Virus record (IMG/VR): IMGVR_UViG_3300037838_000157
Span: 1 to 43,817 of that record
DNA from: a virus
DNA length: 43,817 nucleotides
Reading direction: 5' to 3' (one strand)
Position numbers and translations under genes: made by a program. This document shows, in pieces, positions 3,072 to 43,626 of the stretch. Below the pieces are notes generated by a model. The model was not told where the DNA came from and made no database searches. It saw nothing but the letters and a program-made list of their open reading frames with translations. Every line of letters begins with the position of its first letter. The first letter of the stretch is position 1.

Positions 3072-4286
3072 ATGTTGATCGAAGATGTCCTAACAGAGTT
3101 TAAGAGGACACACCTAGAACACATAGAGGACATTGTGATAACCGACGGCTACGAGGGTGGCAAGGCTGTTGTGGAATACTTCAGAGGACTACTGCTTACA
3201 CTGAAAGGAACAAGTTCAGAGGCAATGAGTGTGTCTGTGAAGTGGGATGGCGCACCTGCTGTAGTGTGTGGGACAAACCCAGACAACGGCCGGTTCTTCG
3301 TGGGAACAAAATCTGTGTTTGCCAAGGCCGCAAAGATCAATTACACAAAGAAAGACATAGCGAACAATCACGGCACGGATGACCTAGGACAGAAGTTATT
3401 GAAGTGTCTTGTGCATATAAAGAAACTGAACATACAGGGAGTGGTGCAAGGAGATCTACTATTCACAGACGAGGACATCACACGTAAGAACGTGGATGGC
3501 AAACCCAACCTCACATTCACACCTAACACAATAACATACGCAGTTCCAGAAGCAGGCGACCTAGGCAAACAGATAGATAGAGCCAAAGTGGGAATCATAT
3601 TTCATACAACATATGTGGGTGACTCTCTGGCGGACATGAATGCCCAAGGAGGAGCAGACGTGAGTTCATTCGCAAAAAGCAATGACGTGTTCTTTGACAA
3701 TGCCACATACAAGGACGTGTCAGGCAGTGCCAAGTTCACTGACGATGAAACAAAACAATTCTACAATGGCATAGAAAAATTAGAGACACTGTTAAATGGT
3801 GTGCCACAGAACCTATCAAGTGTGCTAGGACAGAATCAAGACTTCATACCCATGTTCCAGATGTACATCAACGCAATGGTCAAGCAAGGACAGTTACCAA
3901 GTGATGTGAATAAGTTCCTGCTAGGCTTCAAGAAGTTCTACGCAGACAGAATGCAACAGCAGATGTCAGGACTTAAGGCACAGAAGGCCTTGCAGTTGAG
4001 ACAGGACAAGATGAAACAGATGCCTGTATTCCTTAACAGAGCCAAGAAACCGTTACAGGCGATGCTGACTTTCTACAAGGCAGTGCAGACCATGAAAGGC
4101 TTTGTGTTGAAGAAAATGAATCAAGCACAGGCGATAGGATCATTCCAACAGACAGATGGCGGACTAGAAGTGACAGAACCAGAGGGTTTCGTTGCTGTTG
4201 ACAAGTCAGGCAATGCCGTCAAGTTAGTAGATAGGTTGGGATTCTCAAGAAGAAACTTGACGGGTATCAGCAAATTCAAAAAATAA
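3072..4286 (+). CDS. DUF6267-like phage protein with a KxDG nucleotidyltransferase-like motif
   Basis: A 404-residue protein that I recognise as similar to a family widespread in T4-like cyanophages (I believe DUF6267). Around residue 57 it has VSVKWDGAPAVVCG, which matches the K-x-D-G adenylation motif of ATP-dependent DNA/RNA ligases and capping enzymes; GVVQGDLLFTDED (around residues 122–134) resembles ligase motif III (h-G-E/D-L). A clear motif IV (EG-V-hK) and motif V are not obvious, so the nucleotidyltransferase reading is inference. The C-terminal third is Gln/Lys-rich and helical. Its last 42 bp overlap, tail to tail, the end of the reverse-strand gene at 4245–5282. Confidence 0.7.
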   Translation: MLIEDVLTEFKRTHLEHIEDIVITDGYEGGKAVVEYFRGLLLTLKGTSSEAMSVSVKWDGAPAVVCGTNPDNGRFFVGTKSVFAKAAKINYTKKDIANNHGTDDLGQKLLKCLVHIKKLNIQGVVQGDLLFTDEDITRKNVDGKPNLTFTPNTITYAVPEAGDLGKQIDRAKVGIIFHTTYVGDSLADMNAQGGADVSSFAKSNDVFFDNATYKDVSGSAKFTDDETKQFYNGIEKLETLLNGVPQNLSSVLGQNQDFIPMFQMYINAMVKQGQLPSDVNKFLLGFKKFYADRMQQQMSGLKAQKALQLRQDKMKQMPVFLNRAKKPLQAMLTFYKAVQTMKGFVLKKMNQAQAIGSFQQTDGGLEVTEPEGFVAVDKSGNAVKLVDRLGFSRRNLTGISKFKK

Positions 4287-19775: not shown

Positions 19776-20323
19776 TAGCAAAATTCGCCAAACAGAACAA
19801 CTGGAAGCAAGGGTTAGAACTTGGTGTTTGGGTAGGTGTCACAACATTCTACATGATGAGAGAGACCGATGTGAAGATGTTCTGTGTCGACTCATGGGAA
19901 GAACAACCAGATAATCCAGAATATGATTGGCAGTTCAACAAGAAACCCAGATGGAAGGACGGAAAGTTGACCGTGGAAGAGTTCACAAACGAGAACCATG
20001 CATGGGATCACAACAAGAACGAGAAGCATTTCCGAGACAATGCTGAGCCGTGGGGAGACAGGATAACCATAATAAAGGGAAGGTCGTTAGCAATCATAGA
20101 TCAAATACCTGACAACAGCATGGACTTCATATTCCATGACTCAGATCATTCCTATCCCTTCGTCAAGAACGAGATAGAAGCGTACCTACCTAAGTTGAAA
20201 AGTGGTGGATACTCCATGGGAGATGATTATAACTGGGGTACAGTTGAAAGGTCAGTGAAAGAGGCATTTGGTGGTAAACACGATGTAACGGGCAAAGGTG
20301 TTTGGTACGCTGTTAAGGACTAG
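19757..20323 (+). CDS. Class I SAM-dependent methyltransferase (Methyltransf_24-like)
   Basis: A 188-residue methyltransferase: GLELGVWVGVTTFYMM (motif I, E-x-G-x-x-x-G), VKMFCVDSWEEQPDN (acidic end of strand 2), ITIIKGRSLAIIDQIPDNS (strand and loop typical of the family), MDFIFHDSDHSYPFVKNEIE (the D-x-D-H-x-Y/S block of Methyltransf_24), then LKSGGYSMGDDY. It overlaps the glycosyltransferase-like gene by 19 bp, consistent with sugar methylation as a pair. The next reverse-strand gene ends inside its last 4 bp. Confidence 0.8.
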   Translation: MDRYRVIAKFAKQNNWKQGLELGVWVGVTTFYMMRETDVKMFCVDSWEEQPDNPEYDWQFNKKPRWKDGKLTVEEFTNENHAWDHNKNEKHFRDNAEPWGDRITIIKGRSLAIIDQIPDNSMDFIFHDSDHSYPFVKNEIEAYLPKLKSGGYSMGDDYNWGTVERSVKEAFGGKHDVTGKGVWYAVKD

Positions 20324-20532
20324 GATTCATCCCCGCCTTTGCAACCAATAACGATAGACTCGAACAGTATATTGTATTGCATGAACCCGCCTGCAGTCTC
20401 GTAGAATCTAACTTCTGCTCTCTCCTCACACGTTTTGAGATCTTTGTAGATCTTTTTGTCATTATCATCGTAAGTCGTACACTCGGCAACACCGTTGACC
20501 AGTATGCAGAAGGTTGCGAATAGTTTGTACAT
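20320..20532 (-). CDS. Small exported Cys-containing protein
   Basis: Starts at ATG 20532 (MYKLFATFCILVNGVAEC...): a short basic residue, a hydrophobic stretch of about 13 residues and then Cys, Tyr and Asp, resembling a signal or anchor peptide. Mature part has Cys near the start, in KTCEERAEVRF and at IVIGC near the end. The gene at 22179 encodes a protein with the same length (70 residues) and order of features (hydrophobic N-terminus, C-x2-...-Y...C...A...Y...C), so they may be paralogues. It directly follows the tmRNA coding piece on the same strand. Its stop overlaps the methyltransferase gene by 4 bp. Confidence 0.6.
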   Translation of the reverse strand: MYKLFATFCILVNGVAECTTYDDNDKKIYKDLKTCEERAEVRFYETAGGFMQYNILFESIVIGCKGGDES

Positions 20533-20588
20533 GTTAATAGTTATGGTCCGTTCTGTTGCAAGGTGGACCAAACCCCTGGGATTATTGG

Positions 20589-20660
20589 TTATTACGCCGC
20601 TAATCTCAATTCAGACATACCAACTGTTAAGTCAGCAAATCCTAATGCTTTTTTGTTTGC
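20589..20660 (-). other. tmRNA tag-peptide reading frame
   Basis: From resume codon GCA (20660–20658) the frame gives ANKKALGFAD, then LTVGMSELRLAA, then TAA TAA (20594–20589), 22 residues including the resume Ala. It ends LAA as most ClpXP-directed tags do; the middle is unusual in length and content. The last residues (L-R-L-A-A) are what ClpX and related adaptors would read. Confidence 0.8.
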
Positions 20661-20761
20661 ATTTAAAACTTGGCCTGTTAGGTCAGTACCATCTCCAAGT
20701 TCTCGTAACAAGTTTAGACGTCGATCGATTCCAATAACACCCCCGGAAGGGATTACATAAG

Positions 20762-20783
20762 CCACCAAGTAATAAATTGGTGG
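20762..20783 (-). repeat. Inverted repeat in the tmRNA precursor spacer
   Basis: CCACCAA and TTGGTGG (7 bp) flank an 8-nt AT loop. The left arm overlaps the mature CCA end of the acceptor piece, so it may form a hairpin in the precursor loop that is removed when the two pieces are separated. Confidence 0.6.
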
Positions 20784-20864
20784 AGGTGGCGAGATTTGAA
20801 CTCGCGTCTCGTCCGCTTATTAATTGTTAGTCAACAAACTTAACTGTATTTAAACACAGAATGT

Positions 20865-21317
20865 CTATGCTGTCAACTTCGCTTTGTATCCTTTAAACTC
20901 TCTGTTGTCGCCAATAGTTGCTCTCCAGAATGAATTGTATTTGAGTCTTTGCCCCTCACAAAACTTCTTTAAACTGCTGATAGTTTTAACTTTACCATCT
21001 GGAAATGTTACTTTGTACTTCTTACAACCCCTAGTATCATTGCCCCTGGCCGCTTTTATACCCGCAATTCTTTTTGCCCTTACTTCTGGATCCTTCCAAC
21101 TTGCTTTGTTTCTCTCTGTCATTACTAAACTGTGATGCTCCGTATCTGTTGATAGTTTGGCCAACCCTTGCCAAGCACAGTAATCTTGCCAACGCCCATA
21201 CTGTTCCCATAACTTCTTGTGTGCTTCGGCGTGTTCCTCAGGTGTGAGATGAGCGATGTTGCTTGGGTGATCACTGCCCCCAACGTGCCTAGGAATGATA
21301 TGATGTTTGTGCTTCAT
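20865..21317 (-). CDS. HNH endonuclease (homing-type) next to the tmRNA gene
   Basis: A 150-residue protein: HHIIPRHVGGSDHPSNIAHL with TPEEHAEAH is a clear HNH motif with the G-G and H-x3-N spacing of free-standing phage endonucleases. The middle is basic (WKDPEVRAKRIAGIKAARG), and the end (TISSLKKFCEGQRLKYNSFW...GYK) looks like a DNA-binding helix tail of NUMOD type. It ends about 10 bp upstream of the tmRNA acceptor piece on the same strand, so read-through into the tmRNA is likely. A homing enzyme that targets or travels with the tmRNA gene is plausible; its target site is unknown. Confidence 0.85.
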   Translation of the reverse strand: MKHKHHIIPRHVGGSDHPSNIAHLTPEEHAEAHKKLWEQYGRWQDYCAWQGLAKLSTDTEHHSLVMTERNKASWKDPEVRAKRIAGIKAARGNDTRGCKKYKVTFPDGKVKTISSLKKFCEGQRLKYNSFWRATIGDNREFKGYKAKLTA

Positions 21318-26475: not shown

Positions 26476-27534
26476 ATGATTAAAAATCAAGCCGCAGATA
26501 GACTATACTCACAAATCAAAGAACGTCTAAATGAGGCATATCACAAAATACACACCTCTGGGCAAACAATAGACGGAGACTATACCCATTCAGTTCAAGA
26601 GAAACTCAAAAAAATCACAGGAAGAAAACACGCCAAACTGCTTACCTCAGGCACCACTGCAATCATGACAGCACTGATGGCGTGGGATATAATAAAAAAG
26701 AGGGTGGCGTGTGTGAACTACAGTTTTGTAGCCAGTGCCAATCAAGCGTCACTGCTTAACGATGTTGAGTTCTTTGATATTGATCACAAAGGTCTTATGT
26801 TGCTTGATGAAAAATTCGATCATGATGCGGTCATTCCCGTGTCGTTGTATGGTAACACCATAGACTACGACAATTTAAAAATTGCAGATAACACGAAAGT
26901 GATTGTAGATTGTGCCCAAGGAATAGGATCATCCTATAAGGGTAAACCTGACGGCAGTTTCGGAGATGCTTCTGTGTTCAGTTTTGCAGGTAACAAACCT
27001 ATACCCACAGCGGGCACCCATGGTGCACTTCTTTGGGACGATGACCAAATGTCAGATAGAGTGGAGGCGGCATCGAGGAATGGGAAACTGTCCAGAGATA
27101 CCGGTATCGTGTCATTTGGAACCAACGGTACGCCTTATGAACTACAGGCCGCTCAGATAGATATAGGCCTGGACTATCTACAGCAGTGGCAATCTAAGAG
27201 AAAGAATATTCATCAATACTATACAGATAAATTTATAAATCTACCTTTTGAAATCATACATCCAGCAGATTACTGCGAGTCTAACTATCACAAGTTTTCT
27301 ATTTTGTCAAAAGACAGGAATAAATTGCTGAACTTTTTAGCAGATAATGGAGTCCAGGCCACTTTGCAATACACAGACAACTTTGCGGATTTCTTTGGTT
27401 CTGACAAACAATTTCCAAACACAGATAGGTTTTGTAAAGACATAATTGTATTACCAAATCACGCATGGCTTACTGATGCAGAGATAGAAAAAGTCGCTAC
27501 CACAGTCAATGACTTCTACAAAATCAACCAATAA
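26476..27534 (+). CDS. DegT/DnrJ/EryC1-type PLP-dependent aminotransferase
   Basis: A 352-residue aminotransferase of the sugar-nucleotide family: LLTSGTTAIMTALMAW (the PLP phosphate-binding N-terminal helix), ACVNYSFVASANQASLLN, VIPVSLYGNTIDYDNL, VIVDCAQGIGSSYKG (the D-x-A-Q/x PLP-binding Asp), FSFAGNKPIPTAGTHGA with the internal-aldimine Lys. Family members aminate keto-sugars for LPS, glycan or antibiotic sugars. It starts right after the oxygenase gene and has a second copy at 33772–34824 sharing the unusual NKPIPT Lys motif. A full de-novo aminosugar route is not visible, so host substrates may be used. Confidence 0.85.
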   Translation: MIKNQAADRLYSQIKERLNEAYHKIHTSGQTIDGDYTHSVQEKLKKITGRKHAKLLTSGTTAIMTALMAWDIIKKRVACVNYSFVASANQASLLNDVEFFDIDHKGLMLLDEKFDHDAVIPVSLYGNTIDYDNLKIADNTKVIVDCAQGIGSSYKGKPDGSFGDASVFSFAGNKPIPTAGTHGALLWDDDQMSDRVEAASRNGKLSRDTGIVSFGTNGTPYELQAAQIDIGLDYLQQWQSKRKNIHQYYTDKFINLPFEIIHPADYCESNYHKFSILSKDRNKLLNFLADNGVQATLQYTDNFADFFGSDKQFPNTDRFCKDIIVLPNHAWLTDAEIEKVATTVNDFYKINQ

Positions 27535-33098: not shown

Positions 33099-33779
33099 AT
33101 GAGAAAAGAACATTACACAAAATTAATCAAAGATGAAAAGTGGAAATGGGCAAAGGAGCATTTTGATGCTCTCAATACCTATGTGCCAAAAAAACTGACT
33201 AAAGTTGATGTCGACCCAGAGGAATGGATAAAATTTTCAATGGACTACTTTAATGACGCTAATCAGAGCTACATAGGATTCAAATCGAACTGTGATGATT
33301 TTACCTGTAAATTAACAAACCTCCATGCGGACTTAGGCAGAAACGTGCATAATAGTTTTGGATTGAACTATGGCATTAACGGTGAAACCAATCAAAAAAT
33401 GATTGACATGTTTGGTAAAAACAATCTTGGCCTAGTTAACCTAAGGCCAGACTTCTTATTTTTTAATCTATTTGTAAAACTGCCAGGTCATGGGGTAACA
33501 TGGCACGTAGATACCAATGGAGCATTCATGAAAATGTTCAGTAAAGAATTACAGATCAATAAGGAAACACAAATGTGCCAACACGGTCAAATCAAAAGAC
33601 TTTGGTTCCCTGTCACTGATTGGGATAACGGTCATATATTCCAAATATCAGAGACTGTTATAGCCAATTGGCAACCCGGAGATGTATATGAAATTCCTCA
33701 CGGTATGGGTCATTGCAGTTCCAACGCTGGTTATGTACCACAGATGACCGTTTCACTCACAGGTATCATCAATGATTAA
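33099..33779 (+). CDS. 2OG-Fe(II) oxygenase-like protein (Q-type), duplicate of 27547
   Basis: A 226-residue paralogue of 27547–28227, aligned along the whole length: RKEHYTKLIKDEKWKWAKEH at the start, H136 and D138 in TWHVDTNG, WFPVTDWDNGHIFQISE, GMGHCSSNAGYVPQMTVSLTG with H205. Gln replaces the Lys/Arg at the 2-oxoglutarate-binding position as in its twin. Starting at 33099 (MRKEHYTK) matches the twin's start. Its end overlaps the second DegT gene by 8 bp, as the oxygenase–DegT pair at 25744/26476 does. Confidence 0.72.
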   Translation: MRKEHYTKLIKDEKWKWAKEHFDALNTYVPKKLTKVDVDPEEWIKFSMDYFNDANQSYIGFKSNCDDFTCKLTNLHADLGRNVHNSFGLNYGINGETNQKMIDMFGKNNLGLVNLRPDFLFFNLFVKLPGHGVTWHVDTNGAFMKMFSKELQINKETQMCQHGQIKRLWFPVTDWDNGHIFQISETVIANWQPGDVYEIPHGMGHCSSNAGYVPQMTVSLTGIIND

Positions 33780-34824
33780 GTACGGAAATGTAGCAAGATT
33801 TTTCCAAGACATCAAAGAAGAATACATCAGTTGTATTGAAAAAACAGCAGAATCTGAAATAATGTTTAATGGTCCTTACACAAAGGAAGTTGAACAAAGG
33901 TTAGAAAAAATTACCGGTAGAAAGGCATTACTAGTGACCAGCGGTTCGGCCGCTATGACGTTGGTACTACGACACCTAGAGATTGGTCCTGGAGACGAAG
34001 TGATTACCATAAATTATGGACCGCCTGCAGTTGTTGGACCAATTACATTCTCTGGAGCGAAACCGGTGTTTGTTGATGTAGACAGTCACGGATCCATGGA
34101 CTGCAAATTACTTCCTCAGGCCTTAACACAAAAAACCAAGGCGGTTGTGGCAGTAGGACTTTACGGTGATGTTCATGATCATGATCTAGTAAAAACATTC
34201 TGTGATAAACACAAATTACATTACATAAATGATGCTAATCAAAGTTGTTTTGCCAAATACAAAGGTATCGATAGTTGCTGTCTGGGTGACTTCACAACAG
34301 TAGGATTCGCTGATAACAAACCAATACCAACATTATCTACATATGGTGCGATAATGTGTGACACAGAAGAACAAAAACAAAAGTTGAATAGAATGAGAAA
34401 ACATGGTAAACCTTACAGGCTAGAGCCCTTGACGGGTACTGGACTTAATGCATGGCCTGATGAACATAGATCAATACAATGCAAACTATCCATGGATCGT
34501 TTTGATAACTGGCAAATACGAAGGCACCATATTGCGAAATACTATTACGATAATTTGAATGATACCAGAAAGAGCCCGGAGTACAGTGAGTGGAACACCC
34601 ACAAGTTTGTTGTATTCTTTGACGATAAACTGAAAGCACAAAGAGAATTGCTTGATCTCGGTATTGAAACTGTGCCACACTATACAGAAAGTTATGGTGG
34701 AGGTGATTACAAAAATACCATGCACTATGTCAAACACGCTTTGAGCATACCATTGAATCCATATATCTCTGATTCTGAAGCAGAGCACATTGTTGATATG
34801 GTAAAAAAACTCCAAGATCATTGA
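33772..34824 (+). CDS. DegT/DnrJ/EryC1-type PLP-dependent aminotransferase, second copy
   Basis: A 350-residue aminotransferase: LLVTSGSAAMTLVLRHL, DEVITINYGPPAVVGPIT, VVAVGLYGDVHDHDLV, HYINDANQSCFAKY (PLP Asp), VGFADNKPIPTLSTYGAIM with the Lys. It shares the NKPIPT motif with 26476–27534 but is only moderately similar elsewhere. Overlaps the preceding oxygenase gene by 8 bp, repeating the oxygenase+DegT pair. Likely transfers an amino group to a keto-sugar. Confidence 0.85.
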   Translation: MIKYGNVARFFQDIKEEYISCIEKTAESEIMFNGPYTKEVEQRLEKITGRKALLVTSGSAAMTLVLRHLEIGPGDEVITINYGPPAVVGPITFSGAKPVFVDVDSHGSMDCKLLPQALTQKTKAVVAVGLYGDVHDHDLVKTFCDKHKLHYINDANQSCFAKYKGIDSCCLGDFTTVGFADNKPIPTLSTYGAIMCDTEEQKQKLNRMRKHGKPYRLEPLTGTGLNAWPDEHRSIQCKLSMDRFDNWQIRRHHIAKYYYDNLNDTRKSPEYSEWNTHKFVVFFDDKLKAQRELLDLGIETVPHYTESYGGGDYKNTMHYVKHALSIPLNPYISDSEAEHIVDMVKKLQDH

Positions 34825-41520: not shown

Positions 41521-42108
41521 ATGGCAAAAGGTGATAAACACGTTGGATCAACAGACCAGCAAGGTAACAAAGAACAGGAAAAAACATACGCGGCCACAGG
41601 TGAAAAACTCGAACTGCGTAAGAAGAACGGTACTATCACTTTGGTGACACCACCTAGTTTCTTCCAGAATCAGAACAAAAGTTTCTGTCTGATAAACCTC
41701 AGCAAAAAAGACAAGGACAATTTTGCAGATCAAATTAACAAATATTTTCCTAAAGAAGATTTAACGATTTATCTCTGGGATGACAATAACTTCTCAGCCC
41801 TCGATCCATTTGGCGCTGATGATCCTGAATACGAAAAATATCTAGAAACATGGGCACCTAACAAGAAGGGTAGAGACTACACTTGGTTGTTGAATGCTTG
41901 TAGGGCCTCGACGACAGTGATACTTAACATGGACTACAGTTCTAACCAGATGAAGGTATGGTCAGGATACATTTTGACAATGGCCAAGACTTGGTTCCTA
42001 AACTCTAACACAGATGACTCAGCATCGTTCGGTGTGTTGAACAGAAACAAGATCAACAACATGCAAGAACTATTCCCCAAGATTAAAAAACTCAAAGAAA
42101 ATCAATAA
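41521..42108 (+). CDS. Hypothetical soluble protein between membrane protein and clpX
   Basis: A 195-residue protein starting 2 bp after the membrane protein's stop and ending in the TAATG overlap with clpX. Composition: acidic/basic, beta-rich middle (GTITLVTPPSFFQNQN, SFCLINLSKKDKDNF), DLTIYLWDDNNFSALDPFG, and helical C-terminus ending in Lys. No motif known. Coupling to clpX suggests co-production with the unfoldase. Confidence 0.65.
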   Translation: MAKGDKHVGSTDQQGNKEQEKTYAATGEKLELRKKNGTITLVTPPSFFQNQNKSFCLINLSKKDKDNFADQINKYFPKEDLTIYLWDDNNFSALDPFGADDPEYEKYLETWAPNKKGRDYTWLLNACRASTTVILNMDYSSNQMKVWSGYILTMAKTWFLNSNTDDSASFGVLNRNKINNMQELFPKIKKLKENQ

Positions 42109-43358
42109 TGTCGGAAGAAGCATTGGTATGCTCGTTCTGTGGCAAAAGCCGTAAAGACGTCACTAAGATGATCGTGGGTGCCAAGAAGACATCCATATGC
42201 AACGAATGTGTAAAACTTTGTGTAGAAATCCTAGAAGAAGATGTAATCAAAGCACGTAAAGAAAAACTTTACTCCGGTGATAAGCAAATACTCAATCCCG
42301 TTGCAATCAAGGAACACCTAGACGAATATGTTATAGGACAGGATGCCGCGAAGACAGTATTAAGTGTGGCAGTTGCCAATCACTACAAGAGAATAGTACA
42401 ACCACCAATAGACTTTGATCTAGACAAATCAAATGTTATGGTGTTAGGTGCCACAGGTGCTGGTAAGACACTAATGGCAAGAACAATAGCAAAGTACCTA
42501 GATGTTCCATTCGCAATAGCAGATGCAACTACATTGACCGAATCTGGATATGTGGGCGATGATGTTGAGAATGTGGTACAGAAACTGTATGCGAACTCTG
42601 AGGGTGATATAGAGAAGACACAGAAGGGTATAATATTCATAGATGAGATAGACAAGATCTGTCGTAAAGGAGAGAATACATCTTTGACCAGAGACGTATC
42701 AGGTGAGGGTGTACAACAAGGACTACTTAAAATTGTGGAAGGAACAGAATGCAGAGTACCACCACATGGGGGTAGGAAACATCCTGACCAGCAGACCATA
42801 ACCATAGACACTAGCAACATCTTGTTCATAGTGGGAGGTGCATTCACAGAACTAGAAAAACAGATAAGAAGGAAGAAAGCATCAGGCGGCATAGGGTTTG
42901 GAACTAAACTGCAAGAGCAGGATGACAAGAACTATCTGTCTGAGGTGCAACCAGAAGACCTGATCAAGTACGGACTGATACCAGAGTTCGTTGGTAGATT
43001 CTCCATGATAACAAACATAGACCCGTTGGATGAGCCGCAGTTGATAAGGATACTGACTGAACCCAAGAACGCCATACTAAAACAGACAAACTACCTGTTT
43101 GGATTGGACAACATAGACATTGAGTTTACCAAAGAGGCCAAGCAGAGCATAGCACGTAAGGCCAAAGAACTAGGAACCAACGCAAGGGGACTGAAAAACA
43201 TAGTAGACACAGTGGTTCTGCCATACCAATTCGACGCAGAGGAGATGAGGGACCGAGGAGTTTCAAAAATACAGATAACTAATGCGGTGGTTGACAATGG
43301 TGCAGACCCTGTGTTAGTATTTAAAAAAACAAATGGAATATCAAAAAAACAAAACTAG
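42108..43358 (+). CDS. clpX: ClpX-type AAA+ protein unfoldase
   Basis: A 416-residue ClpX. In order: N-terminal zinc-binding domain (Cys 8, 11, 31, 34), Walker A GATGAGKT (114–121), pore-1 loop GYVG (147–150), Walker B IIFIDE (175–180), RKH loop (223–225, RKHPDQ), IGF loop (GGIGFG, 260–265) used to dock on ClpP, arginine finger region FVGRF (about 297), sensor-2 GTNARGLK. ClpX uses ATP to unfold proteins, including ssrA-tagged ones, and feeds them to ClpP. Phages rarely carry it; retention of the IGF loop suggests use of host ClpP. No ClpP gene is in the window. A tmRNA gene is at 20.6 kb. Overlaps the next gene by 26 bp. Confidence 0.93.
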   Translation: MSEEALVCSFCGKSRKDVTKMIVGAKKTSICNECVKLCVEILEEDVIKARKEKLYSGDKQILNPVAIKEHLDEYVIGQDAAKTVLSVAVANHYKRIVQPPIDFDLDKSNVMVLGATGAGKTLMARTIAKYLDVPFAIADATTLTESGYVGDDVENVVQKLYANSEGDIEKTQKGIIFIDEIDKICRKGENTSLTRDVSGEGVQQGLLKIVEGTECRVPPHGGRKHPDQQTITIDTSNILFIVGGAFTELEKQIRRKKASGGIGFGTKLQEQDDKNYLSEVQPEDLIKYGLIPEFVGRFSMITNIDPLDEPQLIRILTEPKNAILKQTNYLFGLDNIDIEFTKEAKQSIARKAKELGTNARGLKNIVDTVVLPYQFDAEEMRDRGVSKIQITNAVVDNGADPVLVFKKTNGISKKQN

Positions 43359-43626
43359 ACCCAAATTCAAAAAGACGGAGAGACCGTTGGGTTTCCAGGG
43401 CTACTATGTGGAAGTGCGTGAAGGCGAAGATGCCATCAGAGCATACAGGAAGATCAAGAGATGGATCAAGGAAGACAAGTTCATAGATCAGATCAGGGAC
43501 AACAATACCTATAGGAAACCATCAGAGATCAAAGTTGAGAAGAACAAAGAACGTAGGAAAGTCTTACGTAAACTGCGTAGAGAACGTGACAGTTTCATTT
43601 CAATGCGTCCACAAAGAGGCAGATAA
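43333..43626 (+). CDS. rpsU: bS21-like ribosomal protein homologue
   Basis: A 97-residue protein with YVEVREGEDAIRAYRKIKRW, EDKFIDQIRDNNTYRKPSEI and KNKERRKVLRKLRRERD: the order of the short small-subunit protein S21 (V-R-x-x-E/D...A-h-R-x-h-K-R...K-P-S/T...R/K-rich helices). The first 20 residues are an extra basic extension. bS21 helps 30S initiation at mRNA leaders; phages are known to carry copies, and one in a pelagiphage is familiar to me. It may bias host ribosomes to phage mRNAs. Overlaps the end of clpX by 26 bp. Confidence 0.75.
   Translation: MEYQKNKTRPKFKKTERPLGFQGYYVEVREGEDAIRAYRKIKRWIKEDKFIDQIRDNNTYRKPSEIKVEKNKERRKVLRKLRRERDSFISMRPQRGR

Follow-up and report, generated by a model that had tools for sequence, protein, structure and literature searches.

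Does a phage encode a working tmRNA of its own, and if so, what would it gain from one? The question is raised by a locus on the minus strand of a single virus record of 43,817 bases, which was analysed as a whole (the window) and whose proteins include a ribonucleotide reductase, a tail-spike relative, an endolysin, a PAAR protein and virion proteins. An earlier note had proposed that positions 20555-20855 encode a circularly permuted two-piece tmRNA, in which the T arm and CCA end precede, on the reverse strand, a piece that begins with GGGGGTG and contains a tag frame. These elements are present as claimed, and a complete circularly permuted tmRNA lies at 20841-20544 on the minus strand, matched by two Rfam covariance models and by ARAGORN. 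RF04321 (tmRNA_permuted) scores 96.5 bits against a cut-off of 47 (E = 1.2e-17) and RF01849 (alpha_tmRNA) 69.8 bits against a cut-off of 50 (E = 3.9e-17), and the matches recurred on the local region; these two scores and E-values exclude a chance match. ARAGORN, run on the whole window, reports one permuted tmRNA and zero tRNA. Along the minus strand, a promoter-like stretch is followed by the P2 strands, T arm, CACCTCC-ACCA, spacer, GGGGGTG, TCGA motif, tag frame and hairpin, as listed here together with two plus-strand genes discussed below:

20845..20876, minus strand: promoter-like TTGACA ... TTTAAATA, upstream of the tmRNA
20789..20841, minus strand: acceptor piece, with P2 5′ strands and T arm (RF04321 model positions; helices covary in relatives)
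20805-20789, minus strand: T arm GCGAG-TTCAAAT-CTCGC, with stem GCGAG/CTCGC (read from the sequence)
20788-20778, minus strand: 3′ strand of the acceptor stem, CACCTCC, and ACCA end (sequence; pairing in 29 of 29 aligned tmRNAs)
20777-20745, minus strand: intervening spacer of 33 nt, holding the conserved GGTGGCTTATGTAATCCCTTYC of the phage lineage and expected to be removed in maturation
20661..20744, minus strand: start of the coding piece, with GGGGGTG (20744-20738), TCGA motif, P2 3′ strands and pre-resume region (model and alignment)
20660-20589, minus strand: tag frame, with resume codon GCA, ANKKALGFADLTVGMSELRLAA and TAA TAA (frame kept in 32 readable members)
20544..20570, minus strand: 3′ hairpin TGGTCC-ACCTTGCAACAGAAC-GGACCA, with the GCAACAGAA loop of alphaproteobacterial tmRNA (alignment)
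42108-43358, plus strand: full-length ClpX of 416 aa, including the zinc-binding domain (zf-C4_ClpX and AAA_2 both exceed their Pfam cut-offs)
43333..43626, plus strand: ribosomal protein bS21 gene adjoining clpX, a possible functional neighbour (PF01165, 32.1 bits against a cut-off of 27)

The proposed location stands, but the true extent is slightly greater, as the conserved 3′ hairpin reaches 20544 and the −35-like TTGACA starts at 20876. The hairpin, with its GCAACAGAA loop, belongs to an alpha-type 3′ domain, in keeping with the RF01849 score. All 35 distinct upstream regions, one of which (L143) is a contig-end artefact, contain TTGACA/TTGACT or GTAGACA and, after it, a TATAAT/TTAAAT-like box; the promoter-like site of the window is absent from the list produced by a generic sigma-70 scan. 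A free-standing HNH homing endonuclease gene (20865-21317, minus strand) has its end close to the start of the promoter-like stretch; L196 and L199, two relatives, do not show it at that place. Just past the 3′ hairpin starts a 70-aa cysteine-containing reading frame (20320-20532, minus strand), and in several relatives, e.g. L004 and L097, a frame with a similar start is found after the tmRNA. Elsewhere, the same phage has two aminotransferase-family genes (phrog_3139, at 26476-27534 and 33772-34824).

To ask whether the structure is conserved, we aligned 29 diverged marine viral tmRNAs (28 relatives and that of the window), most of which had been fetched through a conserved spacer pattern. 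Over 33 pairs, 94.7% of helix cells are paired, both sides have changed in 26 of the 33, and the covariation score is 0.643, compared with at most 0.134 when the partner strand is slid. The seven-position pairing of GGGGGTG with CACCTCC that had been claimed was confirmed, and includes a G-U third pair; all 7 pairs of this acceptor stem are formed in 100% of cells of the 29 tmRNAs. The G-U pair itself (G3-U70; columns 116/74) is found in 29 of 29, and the ACCA end is invariant. G3-U70 is the classic determinant of alanine identity, and in the window tmRNA it is accompanied by the discriminator A, so both alanine identity elements are present. The loop of the 3′ hairpin is likewise invariant, while both sides have changed in all 6 of its stem pairs, the stem being wholly exchanged among relatives (GGTCC/GGACC, GGCCC/GGGCC and GGCAAC/GTTGCC). 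In the ClpX-sharing relatives L394-L396, the acceptor stem has become CCACTCC/GGGGTGG through compensatory changes, with G3-U70 kept and the spacer replaced. Folding a single sequence did not recover the tmRNA structure. We do not claim a 3′ pseudoknot (X-GGG / CCU-Y) upstream of the hairpin, which is suggestive but inconsistent across rows.

The tag frame has been conserved as well. The 22-residue tag ending in LAA that the earlier note had read is confirmed as ANKKALGFADLTVGMSELRLAA; it starts at the resume codon GCA and ends in RLAA and two stop codons. The tag GMSELRLAA given by ARAGORN is wrong, since the conserved resume site, TAAATGC-GCA, is found 13 codons before it, and conservation extends over the entire frame. 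The frame is intact in 32 of 32 readable family members, and LAA ends every tag. Tags of the main group are 22 and 25 aa long, and their differences consist of whole codons only. The invariant G3-U70 and these whole-codon changes point to a tmRNA under selection, and on the comparative evidence the window tmRNA is a genuine, selected gene. The gene order, the model matches and the pairing support in related phages, either of the last two of which would have counted against the proposal if absent, thus bear out a permuted tmRNA in a phage genome.

The claim that such a gene is unusual in a phage does not hold. Two-piece forms account for 53 of the tmRNA structures reported from 18,146 phage genomes, and 50 of the 53 are marine or aquatic (PMC9004378); a 2025 database is reported to hold 79 unique phage tmRNA sequences (PMC11915505). 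Our generic pattern scan of IMG/VR gave at least 120 matches, which by inspection are mostly real permuted tmRNAs, although about 11 of those listed arose by chance in protein-coding DNA; the number of IMG/VR contigs with a permuted tmRNA exceeds 100. In view of the published examples and this count, the claim of a phage permuted tmRNA is right but not new. Published cases from the same broad group of marine tailed phages are Methylophilales phage Melnitz, Pelagibacter phage HTVC008M and marine virus AG-345-P14 (Kyanoviridae) (PMC9004378), all of which exceed the RF04321 cut-off in our covariance-model scan. HTVC008M has 42% identity to the window protein encoded at 3072-4286. The spacers of all three differ from that of the window, the Melnitz spacer being about 140 nt long with an open frame, and the Melnitz tag is ANDNYVPVDYALAA rather than the 22-residue tag. 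Melnitz also has a glutamine riboswitch, whereas none exceeds the cut-off in the Rfam scan of the window. Among the matches listed in the phage collection, there is no ClpX match in Melnitz or HTVC008M, and the tmRNA region gave no match when compared at the DNA level with isolate phages. Within this known kind of phage gene, the window tmRNA represents a separate, phage-specific branch.

The phage lineage that makes up this branch is marked by a long tag and by an internal spacer with 26 conserved nt. Searched for as an exact pattern, the spacer is found in 39 viral contigs, but in only 2 contigs among 84,980 bacterial and archaeal genomes, and the spacer is absent from all 30 SAR11-family tmRNA loci that were fetched. 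Its strict conservation is partly a matter of ascertainment, most alignment rows having been fetched with it; among relatives fetched through ClpX, the spacer is kept in many cases. Although the spacer is expected to be discarded, few stretches of the family are as highly conserved, and it contains an AUG-UAA start-stop after GGTGG. It can form two hairpins in competition with the acceptor stem, CCACCAA/TTGGTGG and ATCCC/GGGGT, which are paired in 94-99% of cells; we rejected them as covariation-supported, because their pairs hardly vary. Other phages (L373, L379, L397 and L624, which is Melnitz) have long spacers with a start codon behind a ribosome-binding-like site. The L373 spacer encodes a 24-residue hydrophobic peptide, MDDNLGSLAIGVVVVVVVFALVLL, and that of L397 a 62-residue frame, which raises the question for these four phages of whether genes are nested inside permuted tmRNA spacers.

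Bacterial counterparts offer a comparison. We found a permuted tmRNA in 36 of 41 SAR11-family genomes; where readable, it has a spacer of about 12-13 nt and 9-aa tags (ANDKFALAA, ANESYALAA), in contrast to 33 nt and 22 aa in the window. Alphaproteobacterial ssrA (RF01849) and the SAR11 genes nevertheless share with the window the gene order, the CACCTCC/GGGGGTG stem, a GCN resume codon and the LAA end, and the GCAACAGAA 3′ loop is common to the RF01849 model and the window tmRNA. A SAR11-type T arm, GTGGGGGCAGTACCCAC, is present in phage L124, which indicates that T-arm modules have been exchanged with such hosts. T arms (alignment columns 53-69) are mosaic: phage tmRNAs that are otherwise alike differ in having either a TTCAAAT-type or a GGGGCAGTACC-type T loop, and these swaps fall on one side of the conserved spacer. 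The two bacterial contigs with phage-type tmRNAs, L157 and L158, come from metagenome-assembled genomes (MAGs) labelled Rickettsiales and Pelagibacter. Three permuted tmRNAs were found in the Rickettsiales MAG, whose contigs with such genes are probably binned phage contigs. L157, at 46,675 bases, matches in length exactly an IMG/VR viral contig from the same search and is probably viral sequence binned into a MAG. Our best guess is that the host is a marine alphaproteobacterium, perhaps SAR11.

The same phage encodes ClpX. The window protein aligns over its length to a solved ClpX (442 bits with phmmer) and keeps the GYVG pore loop, the RKH loop, the IGF ClpP-docking loop and Walker A and B. 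The order clpX-rpsU (bS21) seen here is also annotated in the Pseudomonas jumbo phage PA5oct. Neither ClpP nor SmpB was found in the window phage; more widely, ClpP was not found in 13 records searched, nor SmpB in 7, some records possibly being fragments. With neither found, host partners would be needed.

ClpX is present in 9 of 9 contigs of at least 40 kb from the tmRNA lineage of the window, and in 15 of the 40 lineage contigs overall. Conversely, among viral contigs of at least 40 kb selected by ClpX, 30 of 44 carry a permuted tmRNA and 14 do not, compared with 0 of 18 in a sample drawn with arbitrary DNA words. Fisher's test gives p = 3e-7 (1e-5 with distant ClpX only), but these values ignore kinship and overstate independence, since the contigs are related and many are incomplete. 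When near-duplicates were collapsed by hand, 14 of 27 distant ClpX groups carried a permuted tmRNA. Contigs selected by NrdA or by the protein at 3072-4286 were rejected as a baseline, being too close to the window's own phage. We also checked 8 published large phages with ClpX against tmRNA covariance models. A tmRNA, in standard or permuted form, clearly exceeds the cut-off in four (permuted in Phosso; standard in phage G and two uncultured huge phages) and marginally in Lak-B8 (47.3 bits against 47), while Atu_ph07, PA5oct and SCTP-2 have ClpX and no tmRNA over the cut-off. Bacillus phage G, Sinorhizobium phages AP-J-162 and Phosso, and two uncultured huge phages have tmRNA and ClpX together, as in the window (PMC11242549, PMC4131195), although their genomes are about 470-640 kb and the window record has 43,817 bases. 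We found no proposal of tmRNA and ClpX as one phage unit in the literature searched, the coverage of which was partial. Comparative evidence shows the gene, its structure, tag frame, selection and lineage as well as the presence and association of clpX, and this association is the part most worth specialist attention. It suggests that the phage supplies the infected cell with both a tag and a protein to read it, the tmRNA probably being paired with the phage ClpX.

Very probably, then, the locus encodes a working alphaproteobacterial-type permuted tmRNA of a marine tailed phage, which would use host SmpB and ClpP and whose LAA end would be read by phage ClpX, host ClpX or both. By analogy with established trans-translation biology, we infer how processing, charging, tagging, the ClpX-ClpP step and a benefit to the phage could follow. 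The transcript would run from acceptor piece through spacer to coding piece, and excision of the spacer by host RNases would leave two RNAs that the 7-bp acceptor stem and the P2 helices keep together. The molecule would be charged via G3-U70 by host alanyl-tRNA synthetase and carried into stalled ribosomes by host SmpB and EF-Tu. Translation would resume at GCA and append ANKKALGFADLTVGMSELRLAA. ClpX, of phage or host origin, would read the LAA end and, with host ClpP, degrade the product. Ribosomes would thereby be kept free while mRNAs break during infection, host protein would be recycled, and ribosomes and amino acids would become available for phage growth. Speculatively, the long tag may steer substrates to the phage ClpX or past host adaptors.

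Two other accounts deny the gene this role. It could be a passive leftover of host ssrA, captured by recombination or left as an attachment-site remnant, with no phage function; ssrA is a common integration site whose fragments occur in prophages (cited in PMC9004378), and some family members have the acceptor stem of SAR11-family tmRNAs together with T arms that are nearly identical to theirs. A leftover should have acquired broken stems and frameshifted tags in relatives, and the opposite was found: the gene is complete, with covarying helices and an in-frame tag across 29-32 diverged viral sequences. The lineage moreover is distinguished by a spacer of its own and by a tag that exceeds twice the length of the SAR11-family tags, and there is no integrase among the ORFs scanned, all of which makes a leftover very unlikely. 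Alternatively, the RNA could act as a decoy, binding SmpB or the ribosome and so inhibiting trans-translation in the host, as proposed for the form of mycobacteriophage DS6A, which has only the tRNA-like domain. Phages can gain by interfering with host quality control, and in E. coli, expression of a DS6A-like molecule is reported to inhibit tmRNA (PMC11915505, PMC4131195, citing Mao et al. 2009). We consider this very unlikely here, as DS6A lacks the tag part, whereas the tag frame, resume site and 3′ hairpin, which a decoy does not need, are all conserved.

A functional tmRNA being the preferred reading, the remaining issue is ClpX. There is close to an even chance that the link is incidental, both being accessory genes of large phages, with ClpX serving otherwise, in degradation of host regulators or remodelling in replication or of capsids. 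ClpX substrates are many, three of the large phages above have ClpX with no tmRNA over the cut-off, and in other tmRNA lineages only 1 of 24 contigs of at least 40 kb has ClpX; with many permuted-tmRNA phages lacking it, ClpX is not required. Against an incidental link stand the 30 of 44 versus 0 of 18 at similar contig size, and the four clear and one marginal tmRNA in 8 ClpX phages, compared with about 2.3% of phage genomes reported to have a tmRNA (PMC9004378). From these sequence associations, we tentatively put forward, as possible though somewhat doubtful, that some large phages have a self-made module, consisting of a tmRNA with a phage-specific long degron and the ClpX that reads it, and relying on the host only for SmpB and ClpP.

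If this is true, the reason why phages carry tmRNA, which published reports leave at speculation, would become testable. A phage that brings both tag and reader would bring ribosome rescue and protein turnover jointly, as one unit, under its command, and during infection it would control which stalled products are tagged and destroyed.
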